This document shows, piece by piece, positions 1 to 63,600 of a stretch of 64,000 nucleotides of DNA; the first letter of the stretch is position 1, and each line of letters starts with the position of its first letter. Made by a program: the position numbers and the translations under genes. Under the pieces are notes generated by a model, which did not search any database, was not told the origin of the DNA, and saw only the letters and a list, made by a program, of their open reading frames with translations. This DNA comes from Moniliella sp. 'wahieum' (taxonomy: Eukaryota > Basidiomycota > Moniliellomycetes > Moniliellales > Moniliellaceae). The stretch is taken from the NCBI GenBank assembly GCA_003971905.1, contig RSEE01000046.1, positions 186,001 through 250,000 on the forward strand. The letters run 5' to 3'.

Positions 1-3000
1 AAGCTTGAAGCTGGAATATCAGAGTGATCTCGGAGGTGGCTGACCTACTGCTGGCCCTCACAGGCCTCAGACCCTTTTGGTCAACATATTGAGTGCTGCA
101 AGAATGTACTGAGAGTGCACTATCGAGTGTTGAATATTCACACTGCTACTCTCACCGAGTTGGGTTTACAGGCGCCACACTAGTATAGAAGTGCTAGGTC
201 TTCTACCGAGTAGCCCTCAGGAAAAGGCCTCAGGCCCTCAGGCCCTCAGACCGGTCACCGGTCACCGGTCAAACTTCAATTGAGCGACTGAGGGTGAGCG
301 CGCACGTGAGCCCAAAAGCTTAAAGCGACGTGTGATGCATGATGCATAATGCATGTGCACGTGCATGACAGTGAGTACACGGAGTACCTGATTCAGATGC
401 TCACAGAGTGCGTTGCTGCGGGCTGCTACTGAGTACCTAAGGCGTAAGTCTGGACGTTCAATCTAAGCGTTCTGCACGCCTAAACGTCCTAAATGTAAGG
501 CGTTGGCCAATGATTAACAACGCATTACTAACTAGGGACTGCGTTATAGCTTTGGAATGGCCACTGGCACACTCTTTCTTCACACAAAGGGAGGGGGTGG
601 GTCTGGCGAAGATCATCGATTCCGGATTCTGATACCCGGCCGGGGACGCAGACTGGACCCCTTCCAGGGCGCGCGCTCCCCCAGCTCGCCTGCTCGCCGG
701 AAGAAGCAGGTTCTACATAGATACTGCTGCGGGCTACTGTTGCGGCCCGCGGCCCGCAGCCCTCCGCAGCAACTGCTCCGTCTATTCAGAGCACATATCT
801 ATCCACTGTAATGTAACTGCGGCCCTGGTGACCGGTGCTGAGACCGCTGACTGCTGACCGGTGAGTCCGTGAGGCCGGCGAAGCCTGAAGCCTGAAGCTC
901 ATTGTTGCGTTGCATGTCTAGCACATTCCTGCTGGAGTGCGACTCGGGAGAACTCGACGATCCCATCGACCGACCAGCTGCAAAAACAGCCTTCGGATAA
1001 ACGGCGTGAAGGCAAAGTGGTGAGCCACAAGTCTTCCACCGTCCCAAGGGAAGGAGACAGGAGACAGGAGATAGAGTAGAGGGAGATGCAGATGGAACGA
1101 GCAGGGAGGGGTGGGCGGCGTGCGAGCGGGACTTTTCCGCCCGGCGAGGCGAGCATCACGGAACAACTTGAGGGCCGTGCAGGGACACCCTAACTAGCAC
1201 TACGGGGACCCTAGCACTACCCTCCGGCATCGTGACCGGGCGACCAGCCGTCCGCTTGATTCGGGGCTCTGCCGCGCGCATTCCGACAGGTTGAAATTGC
1301 CTGTACATGGCTCATCGACACCTAGCATGCTTAGGCGTCACTCCCACGGTCTAGCAGCACCGTCTGTTGCTGCTGGAACCGCCATGGGGCGCTGAGCGTG
1401 CTGAGCACTGTCAGCAAAGCTCCAAAACGGGGCGTTGAAAACACATCTTATTGGTCACCGGGCATGTGGCTTTGGGCCGGAACAATAAATGGAAAACGGG
1501 CCGGCTATCATAGAAGGCAGACCGACGACCACATTTGTTGTGTGTATACCGCAGTCAAAGGTGGCCTTCGATGGGTTGGCAGGAGGTTTGGGAGCAGGCA
1601 CTCAATGCGCTGTGGCAGGACGAGAGTGCTGGTATAGCATTGGTAGTGGGAGACTCACAGAACTTGAGCTACGTTGAGAGAAGATCCAAGGGAGACAAGC
1701 TTTTTCAATTGATGAGCTAACTACCTGCCTGCCCTACCGATCGTCGCTGTGCTGCTAACTTGCCCAGCATGCACCAAAAGCTTGCACCCCACCACGCCCA
1801 CCCTCCTCACACCTACGCCCAGGCTGAGACTCAGGAGTCGACCTTTCGCCCCTGTTGCAAATTAATGTTTCCGCGAGTCGTGCGCCGCACACATGCGCAT
1901 CCCAGAATGCTCAGCACTGAAGTGCCACACCCGCCGTACTGTGTTGCGCGCCTCGGCTAATAGTCGCAAGTCGCAGAGCCCTTGCTTTTGAACGGCAGGT
2001 GGAAGCCACTATATACTGCTACCACCAGCTACCCCTTTCCCAACTTTATGGCCGCCTAGTGCAACATTCGTTCCAACTGAGGCCTGGCCCTCCCAACCCA
2101 TACGCCAATGTTGGAAGATGTCCCCCATATGGGCCTCGAACGTGGGAGACGGAGGGATTCCTCACGGCTCTGGCTTCGGCCCCTACACGGAAAAGGGGGA
2201 GCAAAAGCTAATCCAAAATTGGGCTTGGTGCTAGCAGTTGGGCATCGGTTATATAGGGCTCATGAGGACCCTGCGCTCGGTGGTGCACGGTGGCATAAGA
2301 CTCCCTACTAACGGCTGTCTAGATCCTGCCGTTCAGCAAGTAAATATAGGGTCCCGTTTTGACGCCTTCATGCTCTCCTTCCCCCACCGATCACCTCCAT
2401 CCCGCCTTTTCGGAGCCCCACCCGTTGTCAAGCCATGTTGGACAGGCAGCCCTACCTCGAGCCAACATATGCATTAGCGGAATCAGAGGATGAGGAGATT
2501 ACAATTGATGGCACGCCGCCGCCCAGAGTACCGACTCACCTCTGGTGCCCATGTTCGCCAAAACTCCCTTTCCTCCTATCTTGATCTTCTCGTCTGTATC
2601 CCCACAATAAATTAGTAACTTACCCCCTTCCACCTTCCACCCTCTGCCCCCAACCTCAGTCTGTGCAGCAGCAGGACTTTCCACACCCCTTGGCCACAAG
2701 AGCGCGCTAACCCCCCATTATGGTACATGCATCAAATGTGTCGAGTCTATGGCATTTCTGCGGTGTCCTCGCCCGCTGATCAGCTTGATCTGTGTGCTGT
2801 CGGCCAAGCTGACGGATCACGCTGATTGGTTCTTTTGGCTTTGCCATCATGTATGACACTTCAAGGCTCAAGACGAAAGCACTTCTTCTTGCTGTTTTCG
2901 CAGCGGATGGAAGCTGGATCAACCGTGACAGTGGGTGCGTCCTGCAGCGCAAAATACCAGGAAACGCGCACCAGAATTCGATAACAATGTATCGGGTAAC

Positions 3001-3128
3001 CCAGTCGACCAAGCTACACGAACAGTGCTGGCTTTTGTCCCGATCCCATAGTGCTGGCGAAGTAGTACGTTGCCAATCCAAAGGAATGGACATAACATGG
3101 GAATTATGCATCATCCCACAGGCAAAAC

Positions 3129-3230
3129 CATCCCATCCCATCCCATCCCATCCCATCCCATCCCATCCCATCCATCCCATCCCATCCCATCCCATCCCAT
3201 CCCATCCCATCCCATCCCATCCCATCCCAT
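3129..3230. repeat. (TCCCA)n microsatellite
   Basis: About twenty tandem copies of the pentamer TCCCA/CATCC with one short interruption near 3171. The opposite strand reads TGGGA repeated, a G-rich array. ORFs crossing it encode only a Met-Gly-Trp-Asp or Ser-His-Pro-Ile pattern and are not genes. Confidence 0.95.
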
Positions 3231-3439
3231 GCCACCTTCCTCATTCTGACCCGCTCTTGCACCAGCCGCTTGGCCCTCACCACGTCGCTCTCCCCTACCA
3301 TTACCCCCATCTCAACGCTCGTCACGGTCATGGTCAAGATCGAGTTGCCCATGAGCAAAAGTACAACGTGGTGCTCTGTCTGACTGTCTCGTCCACGCTT
3401 GCGCTCGCCCGGTGGTAACGATGGTTCAACCTTGTATCA

Positions 3440-3680
3440 GGCGTCTCCAAAAGCTTGTGCCGGCCATGCCCAAACATGCCCCGCCATTTCCAGTCCTGTA
3501 CTTGCCATGCGCTTGTGCCCACCGTTTTTGAGCTTGTGCCCGCTATGAGCAAACGTTTGCCAACCACCTCCATGTTTGTGCTCGCCATCCCCAACCCTGT
3601 GCTCGCCGTCAAGCCTGTGGTCGTCATCCCCAAGCCTGCGCTCCCCATCAGGCCTGTGCTCGCCATCTTCCACATCAAGC
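3440..3680. repeat. degenerate minisatellite-like tract
   Basis: Imperfect tandem units of roughly 24-27 bp containing CTTGTGCCCGCC or CTGTGCTCGCC words recur across this stretch. All frames translate into matching repetitive low-complexity peptide on both strands, so a tandem repeat explains it better than a gene. Confidence 0.6.
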
Positions 3681-4585
3681 ATGTATACGAAAATAGTAAC
3701 GCATATCATCGTTCAGCCTATCTCTCCGCCCACTCGAGTCTATTGGGAACATGCACCACCGAAGCATCTGAGCACCTGTCATAGATGTTGAGGCGGACAA
3801 TGACTGTGACGGTGGTGGGTCTTTGAAGCGAACATAAGAACGACGACTGCCCCAGTTGATCCAGCGCATCAGAGTATGCACTTTGAGAGATGATCAACAG
3901 GCGTACCTCAGCAAGTATCAAAGGTATTCAAACAGAACAACAGCATGACTATCGGATGGTATCAATGTGATCATGTTGAATGCAATTGTCGGTACTGTTT
4001 AAGCAGCAAATGCACATTGTTGGGACATGCGAACTGGGAGTATACCAGCAACTTCTGTACATTTTTCGAGGCATCGTCTGACCAACGTTGGAGATGTTTG
4101 AGCTGGCAATCATGTGGCGCGTGACAGCTCTTCTCCAACGGTGTAACGACAAATCTTGCACTTGTTGGCAGGCTGCGGTGTATGACCGAATTGGTGAGAT
4201 GGTCACGACGGTGCTGTCACCAACTGTGGCACCTCAACCGTAGAGAAACAACAACGACTGTCATGGATATTTGAGCGCCTAACCAGGGCATCCGTGGGAC
4301 ATCTTTCGGCCGATCAAAAGTACGATTGTCGAAACGGGTGTAACGGACATGAACCAAATGCACTCTGAGGGAGGCACCAGAGAGGCAGGCCGCCTCGGCA
4401 ATACATTAACTACCAAGCGTGAGCGCTATGGCTCTCTCAGCGAGCAACAGAGAGCAGACCAGCTCGGCAGTACAGTGACTAACTAAGCGTTAGCACAAGG
4501 GACCTGGTCTCTCTCTGAGCGTTACTCGCCAAGGCGCTCTATTATACCTTCGCCCCCCATCTCCTCTCGTTGGTTCGATGGATCT

Positions 4586-15904: not shown

Positions 15905-16847
15905 ATGCGCTCACTTGCCACGCAAACGCCACCACAAATGCGCGCAGCAGCCGTGGCGCGGCGGACGACGCATACGCTTGCCGACCCGCTCGCCGCGTAC
16001 CACACCCGCGTTGCCGCCGGCCATCTCGCCCGCAACGGCGCTCAGATCCACGCCCTCGTCCTCCTCCGCCGCCTCGCCCGCACCCTCGCCGCCCAACACC
16101 AGCGCAATCCGCCGCCGACCCTAGTTCGTACCCAGACCCAGACCCACACCACACCCCCACCCCCGCCTCGTCTCCCGCCCCCACCAACCCATCACCAAGC
16201 CCTCGAACTCGAGAAATGGCTCGTGGCCTCGCCGCCACCTTCTCCACATGCTCCCCCCGGCGCGCTCCTGACGGGCTCCCTGGTGCGTAAGACCTGGTTG
16301 CCGACTGTTCCTCGCCTCCTCCCCCTGGCTTGGGCTTTCGACGGCACTACCATCACCTTTTACTCGAGATTTACGCAGTTGTCAATAGGGAAGCGGCACG
16401 AAGGGCCAAAGAGGCCCGCGCTGCCCGCACCGGGGCTCCAGCGGGTCCCATGGCACTACTTCATCGTGTTCGTCAGCTGGCCCAGCCGCACGCCAGCCGC
16501 CTTGCAAGTGTCTTCCGCCCTCCGGTCCACGACCGTGCCGTGGCCGCGGTCAAGCGCGCGAAGCAAGACAAGCTACAGTAGAAACGCAGGAAGTGGTGCG
16601 TGCGTCCCCTGCCACAGGGAGCGCCGCCTTGGCATCTGCCGCATTGGGCACGTCCACACTCGCCGAGTACGCCGCTGCCTGGCTGCTGGTATCGCAGGGC
16701 AAAGTGATGCTGGTGGATGAACTGCAGCTGCTTGATATCGCCTCGGCGGGCCTGCTGGCGCGAGTGTTGGCTGCATACTGGCGCCTCGGCGGGACGGTGG
16801 TGGGCACGTCCAACCGTGCGCCGCAGGAGTTGTATGCGCGGGCCAAC

Positions 16848-17087
16848 TGTTGGCCTAGGGAGCCGGACGGGCAGAAGGATGAGGAGAAGGTGATGGATTG
16901 GAGCCAGAGTTGGGTCTGGGTACAGAGGCATCTATATAGGAGGCTGGACTAGGCACAGGGACAGTGAGTCACACAGGAGAGAGTGCAGGGCACAGGGACA
17001 GTGACACGCAGGGACGTCAGCGTGGAAGCCGATGGAACCGAGGCGAACCTGGTCTACCGACTGGGAGCCAGAGGATCACAGTCAACA
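16848..17087 (+). repeat. LTR 1 (240 bp), copy 1
   Basis: Begins TGTTGGCCTAGGG and ends GATCACAGTCAACA. It contains the TATA-like word ATCTATATAGG. By eye it is identical over all 240 bp to the reverse complement of 18,271-18,510. Confidence 0.92.
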
Positions 17088-17804
17088 CCCCCGCTGGCCA
17101 GGGAACCCGGAGACGTCGGTTGTGGATGAGCTCCTGCCAGTGGATGTAGAGAGGGGAGGACTTGAGTGGCAACCGGGACGAATGGCCTGGAGTTGTGCAT
17201 GGCCACACGACTGGCCTACACCCCGCTGTCCAGGATGACACCTGAACGAGCCGAGCGCTTGTGGTTGGTGTATTGTGCGACCGCCAGATGCTTGTAGAAG
17301 TCTTAGAAGTAAAAGTAGTAGGGGTTGCGCCCCGAACGATTTGGTGGGCAAAAGTAAAAAGCACCAGTTATAGGTGTAGTGAAAGAAAATTGGAAACTTG
17401 GAGTAAATGCGGTCCAAGGTCGTTTGGCATCAAAATTGGATGCGTTTGGTAGTTGTTTGGTTCCGCATGCCTGGTGCCAGTGGGGTCCATTGGGCATGGG
17501 AAATGAACGGGCGCTATGCGTCAACCGTCTTGATCTGTTTGGGTTCTCTTTGTTGTTGAAAAAGAGGAGTGGAAGAAGTTGGGTGACCACCCCCCCCATC
17601 CTTTCCCCAGGTGCCCCGGATGAATTGGCAATCCGGGGCGTGTAGCCGTGGGTGGGGCACTTGATGAGCAGCCACCCCCGCTTTCTGCGATTCGCCTGCG
17701 CCGTTTTGTCGTTGGAGGAATTTCGTCTCGTTGACGATACCCGACACGTTTTGTTCCGTCGTGTGTTGTCCCTAAAAATCATTGCCCCATCTGTGGGGGA
17801 CGAG

Positions 17805-17864
17805 TGTGCCGATTGTGGCGGTAGTATGCCGATTGTGGCGGTAGTATGCCGATTGTGGCGGTAA
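17805..17864 (+). repeat. 20-bp minisatellite inside LTR element, copy 1
   Basis: Three tandem units of about 20 bp, each containing GCCGATTGTGGCGGTA. The reverse complement occurs with four to five units in copy 2 at about 18,628-18,706, so the array differs between copies. Confidence 0.85.
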
Positions 17865-17866
17865 GG

Positions 17867-18047
17867 GAGTTGGGTCTGGGTACAGAGGCATCTATATAGG
17901 AGGCTGGACTAGGCACAGGGACAGTGAGTCACACAGGAGAGAGTGCAGGGCACAGGGACAGTGACACGCAGGGACGTCAGCGTGGAAGCCGATGGAACCG
18001 AGGCGAACCTGGTCTACCGACTGGGAGCCAGAGGATCACAGTCAACA
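17867..18047 (+). repeat. LTR 2 (truncated, 181 bp), copy 1
   Basis: Corresponds to LTR positions 60-240 and starts abruptly at GAGTTGGGTCTGGG straight after the internal GGCGGTAAGG word. It ends in CAACA at 18,047. Confidence 0.9.
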
Positions 18048-18270
18048 GAACCTTGTGGCCGTAGACGCCGATCGACATGGGTTCCCATTGCCGCCCTGGA
18101 GCAGCTCCTGAACACGGGTGTGGAAAGCGGGTAGATCGGATACAAAGTAGTTGCTGTTGTCAGCCAAGGGCCCAGACCGACGAAAGTCTTTACTACCTGC
18201 CATTGCGATTTGCGGGCAATGCAGTTCGAGCGCGTCGAGAAGGGCTGGAGCTGATTGCGCTGCACGTTGG
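18048..18270 (-). pseudogene. AFG1: inverted internal segment of AFG1 coding sequence
   Basis: This 223-bp block lies between the two LTR elements and encodes AFG1 residues on the minus strand, while the rest of AFG1 is on the plus strand. Reversing it joins ELYARAN to VQRNQLQPF on the left and STATRF to GSPTRVF on the right. Its outer five bases are GAACC (left) and GTTGG (right), the complements of the target-site sequences found outside the element pair. Confidence 0.88.
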
Positions 18271-18510
18271 TGTTGACTGTGATCCTCTGGCTCCCAGTCG
18301 GTAGACCAGGTTCGCCTCGGTTCCATCGGCTTCCACGCTGACGTCCCTGCGTGTCACTGTCCCTGTGCCCTGCACTCTCTCCTGTGTGACTCACTGTCCC
18401 TGTGCCTAGTCCAGCCTCCTATATAGATGCCTCTGTACCCAGACCCAACTCTGGCTCCAATCCATCACCTTCTCCTCATCCTTCTGCCCGTCCGGCTCCC
18501 TAGGCCAACA
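18271..18510 (-). repeat. LTR 3 (240 bp), copy 2
   Basis: TGTTGACTGTGATCC on the plus strand to CCTAGGCCAACA. It is the exact reverse complement of LTR 1 by eye. Confidence 0.92.
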
Positions 18511-18627
18511 GAGCTACAATCTGATCCCCCCGGAAGGGAGCGCTCTTCAAGCAAGCCCACCCCCAAGCCTACAAGCCCAAGCTAAGCCGCCAAGCCCACA
18601 AGACACACCCGTCCTCCCGCCCAACAA

Positions 18628-18706
18628 CACCACCGCCACAATCGGCACCTTACCGCCACAATCGCATACTACCGCCACAATCGGCATACTACCGCCACAA
18701 TCGGCA
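18628..18706 (-). repeat. 20-bp minisatellite inside LTR element, copy 2
   Basis: Four to five tandem units containing TACCGCCACAATCGGC (reverse complement of the copy 1 array), one with a missing G (CAATCGCAT). Confidence 0.8.
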
Positions 18707-19420
18707 CACTCGTCCCCCCAGATGGGGCAATGATTTTTAGGGACAACACACGACGGAACAAACGTGTCGGGTATCGTCAACGAGACGAAATTCCTCCAAC
18801 GACAAAACGGCGCAGGCGAATCGCAGAAAGCGGGGGTGGCTGCTCATCAGTGCCCCACCCACGGCTACACGCCCCGGATTGCCAATTCATCCGGGCACCT
18901 GGGGAAAGGATGGGGGGGGTGGTCACCCAACTTCTTCCACTCCTCTTTTTCAACAACAAAGAGAACCCAAACAGATCAAGACGGTTGACGCATAGCGCCC
19001 GTTCATTTCCCATGCCCAATGGACCCACTGGCACCAGGCATGCGGAACCAAACAACTACCAAACGCATCCAATTTTGATGCCAACGACCTTGGACCGCAT
19101 TTACTCCAAGTTTCCAATTTTCTTTCACTACACCTATAACTGGTGCTTTTTACTTTGCCCACCAAATCGCTTCGGGGCGCAACCCCTACTACTTTTACTT
19201 CTAAGACTTCTACAAGCATCTGGCGGTCGCACAATACACCAACCACAAGCGCTCGGCTCGTTCAGGTGTCATCCTGGACAGCGGGGGTGTAGGCCAGTCG
19301 TGTGGCCATGCACAACTCCAGGCCATTCGTCCCGGTTGCCACTCAAGTCCTCCCCTCTCTACATCCACTGGCAGGAGCTCATCCACAACCGATGTCTCCG
19401 GGTTCCCTGGCCAGCGGGGG

Positions 19421-19656
19421 TGTTGACTGTGATCCTCTGGCTCCCAGTCGGTAGACCAGGTTCGCCTCGGTTCCATCGGCTTCCACGCTGACGTCCCTGC
19501 GTGTCACTGTCCCTGTGCCCTGCACTCTCTCTGTGTGACTCACTGTCCTGTGCCTAGTCCAGCCTCCATATAGATGCCTCTGTACCCAGACCCAACTCTG
19601 GCTCCAATCCATCACCTTCTCCTCATCCTTCTGCCCGTCCGGCTCCCTAGGCAACA
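19421..19656 (-). repeat. LTR 4 (236 bp), copy 2
   Basis: Matches LTR 3 except for four separate one-base deletions (CCC to CC, CC to C twice, one T lost) and no substitution seen. It ends GGCAACA where LTR 3 ends GGCCAACA. Confidence 0.9.
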
Positions 19657-20556
19657 GGTTCGGATCCCCCACGCGTGTCTTCCGTCCCAGGGGAAAGAAA
19701 GTATGGGAATGATATCCTTCGGAGCTCTCTGCGCTGATGAGCTTGCCGGGCAGATTATCTCTCTTTGTGCTCTACCTTCTCCATTTTGGCCATCAAGCAC
19801 GTTCCTCAACTCACGTTGGACGATAGTAAGCCTGGCGAACAAGGCGCACGCGATCAAACACGCAGATTCATCACTCTGATTGACGCTGCTTATGAGACGC
19901 GTACGCGTCTTCTCATCTCGGCTGACGTGCCAATTGACTCACTCTTCGGTTCACGCGGACCGACCACACACACTGAGCTCAACTCTCCTCAGCTTATCCA
20001 ACCGAAACGCTCAGCGAAGCGCGGCAGGACACGATGAAAACTTCCGTCCTAATGTGGGATGTATGACCGTGTGCAGGACCATCGTCTGAACCCTACTGCA
20101 TCTTCACTTCCAGAAAGCGGAGGCAAGCACTCTTCCCTTTCTCTAGCGAAGCGGAACAGTTTGCCACGGCCCGTGCCCTATCCCGGCTACACGAAATGGC
20201 CCGACCCACCTGGCCAACCGACCCATGGACGCCGCTTCCACCGGCTGTTCTGGCCCTCTGGGGAACTCGTGTCAACTGGTCCTCCGTCCCGCCCACCAGT
20301 GTGCTCCCAGAAAACTCGCAAGCGGCAACCAGGGAAGCTACTGGTCCGCTCCCTAGGATAGAAGAGCTACTGGAGGCGCCCGACGACCTCGCATCTACCG
20401 ACTATCAGTCCACCATCGTCAGGGCGCCCCCCACGCCATCCGCGCCCATCATATTTGGGGGGTGCGGGAGGACTGGGGCCGCGGGCCGGGCGCTGGGGCA
20501 AGGGCGCGGCTGTGTACGAAGCGAGTCACGAGGAGGCACAGGATCCGAACAAGTGA

Positions 20557-20879
20557 CGCTCTAATGGATATTCTGTCAGCACTCGTTGAATGTAGGACGA
20601 GGTTTGGACAGAGGCATATTGGCCAAGTCCCAAGCTTGCCATTGCTTAATCAAGTGGCGGGTGTAGCAAAGCCTACCTAACCTTCACACAGTCCGTAATG
20701 ATAGAAGACCGTGTCTGCCTTTAATTTACTTGCACTCGATCAATAGCCAGTTGCCTCTCTGATCCTCCGGCCCCAGGGCCCGAACAACTCATCACTATCA
20801 TCAATGGGAGGGCATACTACTACCCAGTAGAATGTTGTCGCTGTGAGGAATGCATTGATACACAAAGAACGGGATGGAA
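20557..20879. other. convergent 3' spacer between AFG1 and NUG1
   Basis: Contains the 3' flanks of two convergent genes. Nothing else is supported. Confidence 0.5.
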
Positions 20880-55362: not shown

Positions 55363-58286
55363 GAAGGCCAAGGCACGGCCGCTGCACATCCCAAGGTTCA
55401 ACATGGCTCGCATCCTCCATCGGACGGTAGAATGGGGTTGACCACGTGTCTACTCGGGGCACGGAACGGTGGTCAGAGTGGTGGTCCAGAGGGGGGGTGA
55501 CACGGAAGCGAGCATCGATGCAGGTCTGGCATGGTGCCCAGGAGGATGACGGGACAGGGTGGAGAGGAGCCTGCGTCACCTGAAGCAGAACGGTGCAGAG
55601 GCCAATCCGACGGGTGCATCACGTCTGCTCATCGCTCGGGTGACTCCTCTTTACGTCCGTTCTTGTTCCTGCTCTTGTTCTTGTTCTGCTTCCTTTCCAT
55701 GCAGCTGATCCACGACCAATGTGGCGCAGCGGTCTGGCGAACCGTGGGAGCGGCACCCGTCATCTCGCAATCGGTTGAGACACCAAGTCCGGGGGCGGGA
55801 TCTGAGACTGAGATTGAGATCGAGATCGAGACGACTGCTGCGGCTGCTGTTGTTGTTGCTCACTTGGAGCATAGATGGTTGCCAGCCGGGTTCATGCGAG
55901 GTCGGATGATAAAGTTGCCATGAGACCGGGCTGGACGCAAGCGCCCGCTCGACCCCATGGCAGGTCTTAGGCTCTGGGGCCGGTACGGGCATGGGATGGA
56001 ATGCAGGACCGAAGGTATCTTGTGGTCGGGTCCCCCGGTAACCCATACGTCATACGTGTCATACGTGTTCCGCGGGGCAGAACTGCCTGTCGGTGCAAGG
56101 GAAGAGAGGGGAGGAAGCCATGCCAGCGAGAAGGCTTTGGCACAAAAGGAGGTTCTAATGGGCGGTGGCGTGGTTGATTGGATTTGACCCCACTTTTTCC
56201 TCTCTAGTACTATCAGGGAGCACGGCGGGTCTACGAGAAGGCTTGGTACACTCCCCTCTCCTGCCATCGGTTTTGCGCGGGGGGTTCCACCTCTGAAAAG
56301 GAACAGGGTACTGTGGAAGCAAGTCGTTCGTCATGCCAGCAGGGGGGGGTCGACCTGTGGCAAAACAGCGGCTTGGGGAGGTGCGAACCGGTAGACGGGT
56401 CTTTAGCGTGTTGCAGTCCTGGCAATCCTTCGGGAACCATGGTAGGCATAAAAGGATCCGAGCGGGGGCGGCGGTCTTTTGTGCGCTCCTCTTGCGACGA
56501 GGGCATGCGGCCAAAGTGGCTGTCGGTCCAAAGCGGAGGGTTGGCACGGGGAAGCAGGGCACGATCGAAATCCGATGTGGCACGAGGCCTTGGCCGGTGC
56601 AAGGGAGGGGATGGTGTGCGAGGCAAAGAAAAGCATCGGCAATCTCCTCTTCCTCCTGCTCTCTCCGTTCTGTCTAGGTTTTACCGAGCGAGATGGGGCA
56701 TGGCGAGCATCTGGAGTCGTTGCGGCGACCCGGGTACTCCCAAACCGGGCGTGAGGGGGGATGCATGAGAACCGGACTGCCCCGTGGATCGCTGGTTCGA
56801 CCGAGGGGGCTCTCTTGTGATGACACCAGGGACCGCTTGGACCAACTGGGCGAGGCAGACATGTACCGCCGCGTACGCTTCGTCTTGGCCTGGCGCGTGG
56901 CTTCAACGCCCACGCACGATGACGGTCCAGAGCAAAGACCGAGATTGGAACCCGTGCCATGTGAGCTGCAGCCGTCCCGTCCTGCTGTTTGCTCTTCAAT
57001 CGTATCCCCTCCTCGCATTCGGTGGTGCTCGAGTGCGTTGCCGTCTCTTTCATACAAGTGGATGAGGGTGGCTCGTCGGCCGAGGCGAGGGAGGGGGTGA
57101 TGGCGCCGCTCCGGCGTGGCATGACCAGCATGTCCCACCGGTTTGTCTTGCACATCAAGCTGATAACAGAAAAACGTCAGTATAGATCCGGCGGAGCAGC
57201 TAGCTATACTAGGAGGGGGACACACCATTCGACAATGTTGCGACAGTCTCTCAGACGTCAAGGCATAGCTTGGGGCAACACGGTGCACGCGACTTTGCCC
57301 CCGGCAAACATTTTGCATTTGGGAGGCTGCGCAGCGCAGCACCCCCCCCAACAAACGTAGCTGCCGCGCCTCAATCTCTGCTTCGACATGTAAGGCTTCG
57401 AGAAAATCAGCGTCGGAAGCACGGGCCCAGACTGCTGGCCTATCACCTCCACCCCCACCAGATCCGCCTCCCGCTCGGCACACTGCGAGCAGTCCGCACA
57501 CCCTGCCCCCTCCTCCACTCTCCAAGTGTCATCGCCAGTCCCATCATGCGTCTCGTGGTTGCGAGTCGAGTGAGGCTGGAGAGCGGCTGAGCAGTTTCAA
57601 ACGTGTCACCGCTCGAGGTGCACGAGGCGCTGTGAGTAGAGCGCAGACCGCGCATGCCTTGCCGTACACCCTCTTTCTTAGTGGAAGCAGGACGCTGCAG
57701 GGACGCGTTCGGTGATGGGGCGTGCAGGTCCAGCTGCAGCGAATGCGGCGCGCGCATCTCACGCGTCGTCTCAGTTGTGGCACTTGTCGTTCGGTTGGAA
57801 AGTGGGAAGGGAATAAGGTGGAAATGGAGTCTGGTTGCCTTTCCTGCCAGGTGGGGGGCTTGGGGGACACCGCCCAAACTGAGTGGGATCGGGAGATGGT
57901 GGGAGACAGATGAAACAAGAGCAGTTGAAGGGGCAGGAGAGGGGAAAACTCCACCACTGTATGCAAGTGGGTGGGATGTTTGGCATGCGGCTCAAGGCCG
58001 GTTGCGGCTGGGGCGGCTGGGGCGCCCCACTGCGCGCAGAGGGGGAGCACACCCGCGCCGGGTTGCTCATCCGCAAGGCCGATGAGCGAGCGGAAGTGGA
58101 GCGGATATCCGATTCTTTCTCCTCCAGCGCCTCTGCGTCGGCTTCGGCTTGTGCTTCCACCGAGGAGGATACCTCAAAGGCGGTAGAGAGCGACGCGTAT
58201 GGTATCCCACCTACGGTCCACTGGTAGATGCCTCCTGGCGGCTGTTGGTCCAAGTGAGATGGTAGGCTGTGCTGAGCGCCAGGCAT
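53934..58286 (-). CDS. long Ser/Pro-rich coding region, unknown (possible regulatory protein)
   Basis: For about 4.3 kb the minus strand shows successive frames with protein-like, Ser/Pro/Arg-rich composition. From the presumed start near 58,286: IYQWTVGGIPYASLSTAFE, DLHAPSPNASLQRPASTKKE, DADFLEALHVEAEIEARQL, SDFDRALLPRANPPLWTDS, RGTRPQDTFGPAFHPMPVP, DPVELSEWATTFLLNTRMPP, ESANLIPTTPAAYLSWSAQG, and a tail ending GEGTYSRQKG-stop at 53,934. A CCTGTC hexamer at 55,323-55,362 encodes a dipeptide run. I see no catalytic or DNA-binding motif and no confident family. The many frame changes match the rest of the window, but gene borders and intron positions are guesses. It may be more than one gene. 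Confidence 0.35.
55323..55362. repeat. (CCTGTC)n hexamer repeat
   Basis: Six to seven tandem CCTGTC units, coding Gly-Thr, Gly-Gln or Asp-Arg dipeptides on the minus strand depending on frame. Confidence 0.9.
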
Positions 58287-59699
58287 GACACGCTGGCGGT
58301 GGTGCTAAGGGAAGGTGCAATCTGGCCCAAGGGATGAGGGCGGGGGCGACGGGAGAAACGCCGCACGAGGGCAGCCACAGCCGGTACGTAGAAGCAGAAG
58401 CAGTACAGTGTAGATCGTGCCGACCACTGATGTTTCTCACTTGCATTGCCGGGAGCTCCGATGATATGGATATTGCATTGCGCTCCGCGCAGCCGTCTGG
58501 GACGGACGAGGGACTAACGTCCAACGTGCCTAAGGCCTAACGCCAGGTGGCTGGCCGATCAATACGTTCCCAGATGGCCGTTGGATGGATGGCGCTGCGT
58601 GCGGGGGGGAGGCCGACGGCTTGCGTTTCCATCGGCTCCGCCCCGGCCAGCGCGTGTCTGAGGGTGTGAATCGGAGCCTGAGCGCTGAGTGGCTGAATTT
58701 CAATTTCAAGTGGGACAGCGTTCAACCAACGTTCACACGCCTGAGTCTGCCTCAGCGCCTCAGCCCGTCTTCGCAGCATAGCAAGAACGATGGGGTTGCG
58801 GCCAACCCTACTTGGTTGCAAGGCGCGGGGTGGCCGCAAGCCACCTCCAGGCCACCCAGTGGCCTTCTAGCTTCTGCGCACACCCTCCTCCGGCCAGCCA
58901 GGGCCACCATGGCAGCAGCACCGTCTTTCGCAGACCTGCGAATATCAGCTGAGATGCTGAGATCGCTGAGATCTCAAAGGTCTGGACCTGATCGACCTGA
59001 TCATGAGATGATTCATCTAACGCCGCGTACAGTGGCCGGCCCTGCCCAACGGGGTTGTGTGTTCCAGTCGGCCTGAGGCCCTGAGGCCTCCTGAAGCTTT
59101 TGCGTTCAAGCTTCAAGTTGAAGCTTCAAGTTGAACTTCAACGCCCAACGCCCAACGCCCAACGGTAGATCCTGGGCCTGGCTGTTCTACACTGGTGAAA
59201 ATGAGACGAGGCTCTGTGGGAAGGCCGAGCCACAATTCCAAGCACCGAATTGGGAATACCTGTGCCACCCTGGGGTTCAGATCTCAGAGCAATACTCAGT
59301 TGTAGAGAGTCTCCACCAACTGAAGCCGTTGGGCATAGCTGCCCAGCGGACTGAAATCCCCGCTGTAAGCAGCATTGCTGTTCAATTTGGATGTGTTGGG
59401 TATCTGCCCCTGTGATAAACCGCTGAATAGGCATGTACCCACCGCCGCTATCAGTTTCTGTACGACCTCCAACGAGACACACACCCCACGCCAGTGGCAC
59501 GTAATTCAATGAATGTACCAAAAGGGACAGTAACGTGTCGGAGCGTAAAAGTACAGATCGCCCCCGCCAGAAGAATGGCAAAGAATGGGCGAACCAACTA
59601 GAAGGGTGGGGGTACTGAAGTAGAGAAGAAGATGTGATACCCAAGAGGTAGAAAAGGGGATAGGGGCGAAGAAAAAAGAAAGAGGGTGATAAAGGGCCG
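58287..59699. other. intergenic region, no supported gene
   Basis: Includes GAGGCGCTGAGGC (58,748), GAGGCCCTGAGGCC (59,077) and nested AAGCTTCAAGTTGAAGCTTC words (59,107-59,129), plus CCCAACGCCCAACGCCCAACG at 59,143-59,163. These repeats mark spacers elsewhere in the window. Short open frames here lack domains. Confidence 0.5.
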
Positions 59700-60634
59700 A
59701 TATACCATGAAGACGACGAGAACAAAAAAAGAAAAAAAGAGAGCGTGTCGGAAGAGATCTAGTAAGGGTACGGTAGTACTCCTTATCCTCGAAGCGAGGG
59801 TACGCCACGTCGGATTCACGCAACTTCTTTTCCTGTCGCGTCCAACCCAGTGTCTTCAACAGCACAGGCAAGGCCAAGTGCGCGACCAGAGTGGAAAAGA
59901 CGGTAGCCAAACCAAACCAGGTGCAGATCAGCTCCGCACGATAAACTGGATCTCTTCGTACTTGGGGGCCAGCGAATTGACCTGGTCGATCGTCGTTGCA
60001 TTTCCCCAGGGACCGAGGGTATCGCGGCGGAGATCCCCAGCTGCTGCAGCGAAGAAGAATAAACAGCGGTTGCGCATACCCTTGGCGGAATGACTGGGCA
60101 ATCTGGAAGGTGAGGGCCTGCATTGGGCCACTGAGCGGTTCTTGTACCCCCGAGGCCGACAGCGAATACTTCTGGTCCACGGCATAGTACGTGTAGGCCA
60201 CCGTGAGCGAGAACCACAAGATCAACACGAGAGGAAGTAAACCAAACCCACCGGGCCCCAGAGGGCAGTTCCCTTGCCAGTATAACTGCCCTTGCGTCCC
60301 TTGAACTGCGCACCACCCAGACAGACAGTAGCCACGCCCCAGACCATGGTCATAGCACCCACCACGATCCAAGCGCTATGAAGAGGTCAGTGGTGGTGGA
60401 GGCGTCATTTAGAAGAACAGGACATACACATCAATGTTGGTCATTCCGTTGGACTCAATCTTGAGCGTCGAGGCGGCCGAGGTGGGAGAGATGCTTGCGA
60501 AGCATGTAAAACGTGCGATGTTGCGAACTCATGACCATGAGAATGAGCCCCCAGCTCATAACAGCCAGGTGCAGGGGCAGTTCGATCAGGTTGGAGGGCA
60601 CGCCCCGCCTGGAAACTATGCTGCGCTTGGACAT
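59700..60634 (-). CDS. multi-span membrane protein of unknown function
   Basis: ATG 60,634 gives MSKRSIVSRRGVPSNLIELP, followed by a span LHLAVMSWGLILMVM, then TLKIESNGMTNIDV. A 52-bp intron (60,376-60,427) joins it to AWIVVGAMTMVWGVATVCLG, the second span. KGSYTGKGTALWGPVG, a third span LLPLVLILWFSLTVAYTYYA, FQIAQSFRQGYAQPLF, an outside-type loop with GNATTIDQVNSLAPKYEE, and a fourth span LICTWFGLATVFSTLVAHLA follow. The tail is KTLGWTRQEKKLRESD and YPRFEDKEYY. Four membrane segments with charged ends suggest a plasma-membrane or vacuolar protein; I do not recognise the family. Frame breaks lie near 60,230, 60,030 and 59,940. The 3' end past 59,760 runs into a T-rich stretch and is uncertain. 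Confidence 0.6.
60376..60427 (-). other. intron in membrane-protein gene
   Basis: GTATGTCC donor, CACTGACC branch site and TTCATAG acceptor. Splicing gives NIDV-AWIVVGAM in frame. Confidence 0.8.
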
Positions 60635-63600
60635 GGTGCCGAGGTGGAGGTCGAGATGGTGAGGCAGCAGGTGGGAAGAGGCCAGCGTCGCAAGCCGATC
60701 GGATCTACCCCATCGCCCATGCGGGGAAACGGGAGGTTTCGTCCCCGCAATGCTGACCTAAGCCAGCGCGCCTCAACTCGGTTTCAAATCGCATTTCAGC
60801 CGGACGACCGGTGATCATCGATTCATCACGGTGAGCTTGAAGCCAGCCGCATCTACGTCACGCGTCACGCGTGAGGTGTATGTGTACGTAACAACAGAAA
60901 TGGTGTTTCATGGCCTTTCGAGGTCATCTTAGGAGAAAAGTGGGGATGGGATTTCTATAGTGCCAGCCCCCCCCTGGCCTTGCGCCCTAGGCCTTACACC
61001 TTAACCTGGACATCACTAAAACGCGTCGCACGCCCCGAGGGACATCGTGACGGCCGTACGTAGTATATGAGCGCCTCTCGCCCTTCAAGTTCATCTTCAG
61101 TGTCGCCCCACACCGCGTGTCGCCAATAGTCTCCATCCGCACTACCAGGCTCTCTTACACAAACTTCCTTTCCTGCATATTCTACCGGCGCTCGCTCGCA
61201 TCTAATATAATCTGTGCACTCGAATTTTTACCCTCACCGCCTCTATCTCGGCGACGTACTTTGTCTACCGATCTTTTCCTCCCCTCCCCTCCCCTCCCCT
61301 CCCCCAGAGCCCACGAAATTATATATTCTCATCGCACAATATGTTCTTCATTATGGCTTTACAATCACAATTCCTCGTTTCTAAGATCATAGTATTCTCC
61401 TCCCGTGGAAAACACAAAACAACTTTTGACTTCAAAAATGCTATGTACCTTGTAGGATCCTAATCGTCCGCGAGTAGCCACTCTTCTGGAGATATACGAG
61501 GGATCTTCGGTCGGAAGAGAACCGCCCCTATACATCTGACACTGATTATAGAGCCAAACAGCGTTTCGTTTTGATCGGATGTCAGGATCAGACCCACCTG
61601 ATCAAAACTGTCGCTAGATTGGCTGGACCCTGATCTGTTCTAGACCCTGTTTCTGCTCCCCTTTTTTCCTTCTCCGTGGGACTCATTCATGTCCTCTTCT
61701 CGTCGGAGGTACATATACCTCGCCTCCTTTCCTCTCGATGAAAAAGACATGTATCCTGATAATTATCTTTTCCATCTGCTTTCATAGCACCTGTGCAGTG
61801 GATACCGGACGAGCATACCAGGGAGCATCTACCGGCATACGCTCTCCAAACCTCTTGTGCCATAGAATTACAACTATATTATATGGTACAAGCTAATGGG
61901 AGATGGAGGAAGAAGAAGAAGAAGAAGAAGAAGAACGCTGGCTGCTATAACTACAGTGCCATTGATGGCCGTGCCGCTAGTGTAAGCCGCAATTCATCCG
62001 TGCAACAACCTCACATGTGTGGGTCTCTTTTTGTGGACACAAGCAGAGATGACCAAACTTGTCCCCAACTGAAAAGCTGGCTATATCCTCCACCGCCACA
62101 TCGCTCTCCGTCCGCATCCACCTTTTGGGACTGCCAACCTTACAACTAACCACCACACTGAACCTGAACGCGGTATTTCCTGATTTTGTAACACGGGCGG
62201 AGATTGGTGCCTCTCCAAAGTCCCCATGTATCTCACTTCGCCATTTTTATACTTCCCTCGCATTTCAACAGGTCTTCTTACAAGTTGCGTCTGTTAGGAG
62301 TGAAAGATGGCCAGAATCTCCAGAAGCTTGGAACTCCTCGCCCAAGATCCTGACCAGCGTTGTTACGGGGCGCTCCGGTTATCGCCGGGCGCTGAGCCCC
62401 GCATGTCGTAGACATCTCAGCCCAACATGCGTCAGTCCGGTTAGACTAGCGAGTGAGAGCCAGTCGACACCTTATCCTTGCTGCGGATATCATCCGCGGC
62501 CCGCCATGGCCGCATGGGCTTATCGGTACGATGCTTTGTGCCTATTGCGTCCAGTCTTGTCAGAACCCTTCCTGCTGCGCCCGACTGCGCAGTGTCAGCG
62601 CCTTGGGAAGCAAGGGCTGTGCATTTACCTTTCTGGGAAGTGCCCCGCATTCTGTCTATACCTGTCATGAGGCACTTGAGGCCTAGTTCCTTCTGCTGTA
62701 TATAAGCAGCCATGTCTAAGGCTTGCTAGCTGTGGTCCTGGTCGGCCATCCTGTCTATTACCGTTGGTCTCCCCGACTACCAGTTCCTCTCTCGCCCTTC
62801 CACCTTCTACCATCCTTACGCTTACGAATTTACGACTTACGTCGAGTGCACTGCAAGCCGCGGTTACTCACATCAGTAGCGCTTGCTCTTTAGGACTCTG
62901 TCTGTTCCCGCCAGCTACAGCGTACCAAGTGTGGTAACGCTGCGAGGAACAGAGTAATTCCGGAGCTCCTGGACCCCTTCAGCTGGTCTAACGACCTACG
63001 TACGCGGCTCCTACCTCGGAGGGTCTGGACTGCGGCCTTTGCACGCAGGCAGTCACCCAAACTAGAGGGTCTCTCCCTAGCCTCTACACCCGCTCGGTTC
63101 AACCAGGATCTGGAGCAGGACCTAACGTACGAGCCACCGATTGATCTGTCCAAGGGTTTATACCCCTAAACTACAGGAGGGGTCCCACCTCGGGACCCCC
63201 CCCATGACAAGCGTGGCGGTACGGGGGAAAATGGTTTTGTGCCAGTTGCGTGGCGCGGTCTCTCTTCAGCCCTAGATCCAAAAGGTGAGGGGTGACTCGC
63301 ATGCCACGAGAGCCCTCTAAATCCCTTTCATATCCATACTCTCAAGAATGCGTTCACTCTCGCATCACGCCTTCTCGCTCAGGAAATTAAAAGCATTGAG
63401 TTCGTCCCGCACACTGAGATTCGGTTTGCGCACACAGAAGCCCAGCGACACCAGTAGTAATATTCCCAATGACCAAAGGAGGAACAAGATCAGCACAGCG
63501 AACGATCCCCTCTCGACAAGGCAAGGGAATATGTATATCCTTTGTTAAAGTAAACCCTTTTGCACCCCCGGGATGGAAGCAGTCTCCTTATCATGGGACT

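Follow-up and report, generated by a model that had tools for sequence, protein, structure and literature searches.

A reversed segment of the AFG1 gene between two head-to-head LTR elements with exchanged target duplications in Moniliella sp. 'wahieum'

INTRODUCTION

How does a short piece of a gene come to lie backwards within its own coding sequence? The question is raised by a 64,000 nt stretch of the genome of Moniliella sp. 'wahieum' (GenBank assembly GCA_003971905.1, contig RSEE01000046.1, here C46), namely C46:186001-250000, which we refer to as the window. In it the gene AFG1, which encodes a mitochondrial enzyme, is interrupted by two short and near-identical long terminal repeat (LTR) elements, E1 and E2, which lie head to head within 16843-19661, carry 5 bp target duplications, and enclose a reversed piece of the gene. 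Positions without a contig label are window coordinates; C35, C46 and similar labels denote contigs of the same assembly, and genome searches cover all of its 69.5 Mb and 223 contigs. We favour two insertions followed by inversion through recombination between the inverted copies, and put the probability of this account at roughly 0.7.

RESULTS

Two inverted elements with exchanged target duplications

The elements, their flanking 5-mers and the segment between them are as follows.

16843..16847, + strand: CCAAC, target duplication of site 1, left outer half (from sequence; one copy at the C35 empty site)
16848..18047: element E1, LTR orientation +, putative sense strand - (from sequence and self-alignment)
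Parts of E1: full LTR 16848-17087; internal part 17092-17866; inner LTR 17867-18047, without its first 59 nt
17866..17867: deletion junction of E1, with 196 bp gone from the internal end and the inner-LTR start (from the E1/E2 alignment)
18048..18052, + strand: GAACC, target duplication of site 2, inner half, reversed (from sequence)
18048..18270, - strand: reversed AFG1 segment, 223 bp with the two inner duplications and 213 bp without them; 97% match to C35
18266..18270, + strand: GTTGG, target duplication of site 1, inner half, reversed (from sequence)
18271..19656: element E2, LTR orientation -, putative sense strand + (from sequence and alignment)
Parts of E2: inner LTR 18271-18510; internal part 18513-19416; outer LTR 19421-19656, with four 1-nt deletions
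19657..19661, + strand: GGTTC, target duplication of site 2, outer half (from sequence)

Read from left to right the order is CCAAC-E1-GAACC, then GTTGG-E2-GGTTC, so that the 5-mers of each element are the reverse complements of those of the other, and all four are exact. The original prediction had described this exchange, and both the 5-mers and the opposite orientation of the elements are borne out, the latter by the inverted alignment. A chance origin of both complemented matches was rejected (p ~1.3e-6 by base composition, any target preference being left out of this figure); the presence of GTTGG on both sides of an insertion cluster on C106 is relevant to target preference in this estimate.

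E1 retains one complete 240 nt LTR and an internal part of 775 bp. In inverted alignment E1 and E2 share nine arms of 61-248 nt at 96-100% and one more, 71 nt long, at 86%, and the complete alignment contains 1 substitution, 14 one-base gaps and the single 196 bp deletion; single-base gaps thus make up 14 of the 15 small differences. In a set of 58 internal copies of the family, only E1 has this one substitution. The deletion junction is also peculiar to E1, which gave the only match (1 match) in an exact-pattern search of the genome.

The uninserted allele on C35

A genome search with the 223 bp middle piece finds two places, the window itself and C35:302551-302774. When the window is compared with this second allele (taken as C35:297551-307500) both flanks match on the minus strand and the middle piece on the plus strand, all at 97%. 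C35 is an empty site: it contains no element, GAACC and GTTGG are present in one copy each, and the segment is in its normal orientation, with 215 bp between the 5-mers as against 213 in the window. The inversion is therefore real relative to an uninserted allele of the same genome, which is the uninserted state that the original prediction proposed to look for, and its claim that the 223 bp encode AFG1 on the strand opposite to the rest of the gene is correct. The substitution levels relative to C35 (2.81% and 2.32% for the flanks, 2.24% for the middle piece) are alike, and the three pieces consequently look like parts of one and the same old haplotype pair.

Two other origins of the structure were ruled out. 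A foldback read artefact does not fit outer flanks that differ from each other and are collinear with the C35 allele, and a single compound complementary DNA (cDNA) insertion does not fit the host DNA between E1 and E2 or the two separate target sites that are intact in C35.

The relationship between C46 and C35 extends well beyond AFG1. Around the gene the two match without a break over ~10 kb, the best partner of window 58001-61000 is C35 at 260.9-263.8 kb (93%), and that of window 1001-4000 is C35 at 315.3-316.8 kb, with only 1001 to ~2724 aligned (87-93%). These three probed places keep their order over distances of 60 kb on C46 and 56 kb on C35, so that the two contigs are best read as two haplotypes.

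The interrupted AFG1 gene

The coding parts outside the two elements are as follows.

16389..16847, + strand: AFG1 coding part upstream of E1, its frame ending ...RAPQELYARAN; PF03969 piece at C46:202683-202838
19657..20564, + strand: AFG1 coding part downstream of E2, true frame RIPHACLPSQGKE..., with more frame breaks; PF03969 piece at C46:205747-205947

In C35 the gene is a single open frame of 665 codons from stop to stop, and its match to PF03969, the AFG1-like ATPase family (3e-33; 115.7 bits against a curated cut-off of 27), confirms the identity given to it in the original prediction. All 25 of the 25 reported homologues carry PF03969, in a search that, like that for the GNL3L/Grn1 gene below, scored only the candidates with most words in common. 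Sixteen of the homologues are named; 13 of these, which we take to belong to the Ustilaginomycotina, are 32-43% identical, and two unnamed homologues reach 59-61%, but over only 14-34% of the query. Judged by such protein relatives, the fungus itself is probably a member of that group.

In the window the gene is cut after ELYARAN, the next host sequence is the reversed 223 bp, and the gene resumes beyond E2; in the upstream direction, alignment with the C35 frame extends AFG1 sequence to at least ~16100. Restoring the segment gives the true-frame protein junctions ELYARAN-VQRNQLQ at junction 1 and GHKV-RIPHACL at junction 2. The first had been predicted correctly, whereas the TATRF-GSPTRVF proposed for the second is out of frame. 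By its structure the window allele is broken and should yield no normal, working AFG1, as the original prediction held for this haplotype. This predicted loss concerns the window allele: the genome also contains the open C35 allele, and a PF03969 search reveals another AFG1-family locus, recognized by its domain match, in two places (C95:43803-44534 and C97:38247-39265).

Smaller frame breaks are a different matter. The alignment of C46 with C35 over the two flanks contains 22 one-base gaps in the window and 9 in C35, and 17 of the 22 lie beside an identical base. Frames are also broken in two other genes of the window: a GNL3L/Grn1 gene, whose best protein match is in Tilletiaria anomala (37%), and a WD40 gene, presumably RACK1-like, which appears locally broken in C35 too. 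These small breaks look like assembly indels, and since the window contig has frame-breaking indels in other genes, the small frameshifts in AFG1 are not counted as biology.

The same imperfections of C46, that is, the excess of one-base gaps and the frame-broken conserved genes, could be held to favour an assembly artefact, in which the piece between the inverted repeats has been misoriented or the whole structure is chimeric, and errors of orientation are well known to arise at inverted repeats. The indel-type errors, however, suggest that long reads were used, and the entire structure is only 2.8 kb; the junction 5-mers are exact at four of four sites; E1 and E2 have not been collapsed, since the 196 bp deletion tells them apart; and the two insertions would remain even if the orientation were wrong. 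We regard an artefact as very improbable.

Origin of the inversion

In the account that we favour, two young, short and putatively non-autonomous LTR retrotransposon copies would have inserted in opposite orientations into the AFG1 coding sequence, at sites separated by 213 bp, and each would have generated its own 5 bp target duplication. A crossover or template switch between the near-identical inverted copies would then have flipped the host DNA between them and left each target duplication split between E1 and E2, whose likeness provides ample homology for recombination. From what is directly observed (two elements, exchanged duplications, an uninserted allele and a reversed segment) we infer in what order the events took place and that homologous recombination did the flipping. 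The original interpretation holds in outline, and the mechanism is probable, not proven.

A useful comparison is with Galileo in Drosophila buzzatii, for which the criteria of inversion are the opposite orientation of the copies, exchanged duplications and chimeric copies (PMC2775673). Opposite-orientation copies lie at both breakpoints here too, with exchanged duplications and single target copies in the non-inverted allele, as in the non-inverted chromosome of that system. The two cases differ in that Galileo copies were shown to be chimeric (PMC2775673), while E1 and E2 are LTR elements with 5 bp duplications and 213 bp inverted within one gene.

Several points weigh against this account of E1 and E2. 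Chimerism is not demonstrable in these two elements, which are too like each other and the 58 internal copies. Neither an uninverted nor a single-insertion intermediate was seen in the assembly, from which the structure is known. The likeness of C46 and C35 falls away from AFG1, to 93% at 58-61 kb and 87-93% at 1-2.7 kb. Finally, by uniform chance only 0.011-0.025 pairs of insertions within 213 bp or less are expected genome-wide, given 60-90 random sites, a number estimated from LTR counts; such closeness is improbable and leaves two possibilities, a preferred target spot or the joint arrival of two cDNAs.

A variant of recombination after insertion, not exclusive of it, is that the segment flips back and forth and that both orientations occur in culture. 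The inverted repeat is ~1.2 kb long and near-identical, with its copies 213 bp apart, and near-identical inverted repeats so close together are a good recombination substrate. The assembly, however, has one orientation between the elements, and the only other place where the segment occurs is the uninserted allele, so that continued flipping is a tentative suggestion that we think rather unlikely.

Survey of insertion clusters and the possibility of co-integration

How unusual the exchange is can be judged from other insertions of the family, of which the exact LTR-start pattern occurs 177 times in the genome and the LTR-end pattern 179 times. The 46 clusters examined are a non-random sample drawn from the best matches, and 43 have both outer flanks; those dropped for want of one flank are C27, C2:389129 and C4:587256 (the last two completed later), and C1:1546624, whose right edge falls inside the cluster, is in no count. 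Matching 5 bp duplications flank 37 of the 43, 34 exactly and three (C22, C88 and C99:70288) by a lenient rule that accepts a one-base slip or four of five bases. The unmatched six are E1, E2, C34, C13:555996, C68 and C44, the last being off by one base. Four extra compound clusters (C1:1112545, C7:281208, C2:388997 and C4:587256) also have matching 5-mers. Of the unmatched clusters seen, E1 and E2 are the only ones whose flanks pair in exchanged form, and with 37 of the 43 clusters matched their exchange is therefore exceptional.

The elements at C13:555996-557391 and C68:46398-47797 are single and ordinary-looking, with unmatched 5 bp flanks that, compared by eye, show no exchange between the two; it is possible that they are products of recombination between dispersed copies. 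The copy at C34:327195-329177 is palindromic, without inner LTRs, has unmatched flanks (TCACC and CCCCC), and could represent two inverted insertions that have collapsed into one. When each of its flanks was compared with the genome as a 1.2-kb query, the only full match was to itself, other matches being partial and less than 250 bp. The assembly as a whole is apparently diploid, but not completely, because this copy has flanks that lack a second full match.

Compound units inside one duplication are common in the sample. They make up 13 of the 43 clusters, or 17 of 47 with the four later additions, a share that is biased upward, as the additions were either completed or chosen for their complex look; their forms include tandem arrays, inverted copies, and LTR-LTR joints in which one extra base is present. 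Inverted element pieces lie inside one matching duplication at C1:1112545-1114690, C145:52602-58397 and C23:473915-475552, as expected if cDNAs had been linked, or one inserted in another, prior to integration. At each of C2:388997-391786 and C4:587256-590016 a single matching duplication encloses two elements whose LTRs adjoin with one extra base between them.

Such compounds are among the observations that bear on a one-step origin of the AFG1 structure, in which each of two cDNAs would have one of its ends joined by integrase to site 1 and its remaining end to site 2, the 213 bp piece being reversed without any later recombination. By a topology worked out by hand, this predicts the identical four junctions, and it would account for the closeness of the copies that uniform chance does not readily supply. 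The clusters that are compound within one matching duplication, with the bias already mentioned, could be other signs of joint cDNAs in the family, but compound insertions are also explained by ordinary recombination or end-joining. We know of no direct precedent for a double swap of cDNA ends. Co-integration of this kind would be an inversion made by integrase, in a family whose cDNAs often join before or during integration. Retroviral integrations with rearrangements of adjacent host DNA, inversions included, are described in PMC5041404, but in the cases considered there one end has been failed by integrase and joined by host enzymes, and is often truncated, whereas the AFG1 locus has four clean joints. 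We consider co-integration improbable. The proposal of two separate insertions and subsequent ectopic recombination, as the original prediction put it, stands as regards two inverted elements at sites 213 bp apart; their separate timing and the recombination are not established by a sequence that co-integration would leave equally.

The element family

The LTRs of the family are 240 nt direct repeats that begin with TGTTGG and end with TCAACA, and the internal part of full copies is ~905-918 bp. Two further features of E2 are as follows.

19413..19420, + strand (putative sense): AGCGGGGG, polypurine-tract-like, adjoining the outer LTR of E2 (from sequence only)
19280..19287, + strand: second AGCGGGGG inside E2, where some other genomic copies end

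The sense strand is probably that on which AGCGGGGG adjoins the LTR, an assignment that depends in part on this tract, itself recognized by its sequence. On that strand no TGG-type primer-binding site was seen by eye after the 5' LTR, the genome's tRNAs not having been listed for comparison. The second AGCGGGGG, followed by TGT, sits 133 bp upstream of the polypurine tract. At four loci (C23:609273-610801, C2:81877-83399, C99:70288-71823 and C32:448367-448496) this point is a boundary: three insertions stop exactly at the second AGCGGGGG with a matching 5 bp duplication, and in the fourth the point is fused to the LTR start. This suggests plus-strand priming at the second AGCGGGGG and integration of the resulting ends.

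The internal part, at ~0.9 kb, could not accommodate all the retrotransposition proteins, and a Pfam scan of a single internal frame (18730-19491, 253 aa) gave no match. A likely autonomous relative is a Ty1/copia-type element on C37 that resembles the family in its 21 nt LTR end: a copia-type reverse transcriptase (RVT_2, PF07727) at C37:45562-46236 (-), on the element's putative sense strand, is flanked by exact copies of this 21 nt end at C37:43676-43696 and C37:49720-49740, and it is this match together with the position that points to the relationship. Over the alignment columns that E1 also has, the 58 internal copies differ by a median of 1 pairwise substitution, with a 95th percentile of 10. 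Divergence this low is suggestive of insertions far more recent than the 2-3% haplotype split.

The internal domain of classical terminal-repeat retrotransposons in miniature (TRIMs) is ~100-300 bp, and the family departs from this definition in the length of its internal part. It nevertheless resembles TRIM-like elements such as PbTRIM of ants in its short LTRs, short target duplications and many near-identical copies, and further in lacking a recognised coding domain in the one frame tested (PMC3532108).

Elsewhere in the window a tRNA scan with bacterial settings and an Rfam scan gave no matches. The interval ~3150-4000 is a repeat; its relatives, at 65-97% identity, number in the dozens, and several lie near contig ends.

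DISCUSSION

The case of E1 and E2 is a clean new example of an already known kind of inversion. Inversions by alternative transposition have reportedly been found in maize, and our literature search found no LTR-element inversion with exchanged duplications, as judged by titles and the openings of abstracts, so that one may still be in print. As an inversion made by transposable elements it is unusually clean and exact to the base, with two clean 5 bp duplications that have been exchanged, an empty allele in the same genome, and very young elements.

The locus illustrates that the signature of chromosomal inversions can occur at a scale of 213 bp inside one coding sequence. The close pair in AFG1 and the many compound copies elsewhere in the genome also make it possible to ask whether the cDNAs of retrotransposons integrate jointly, inverting host DNA in one step.

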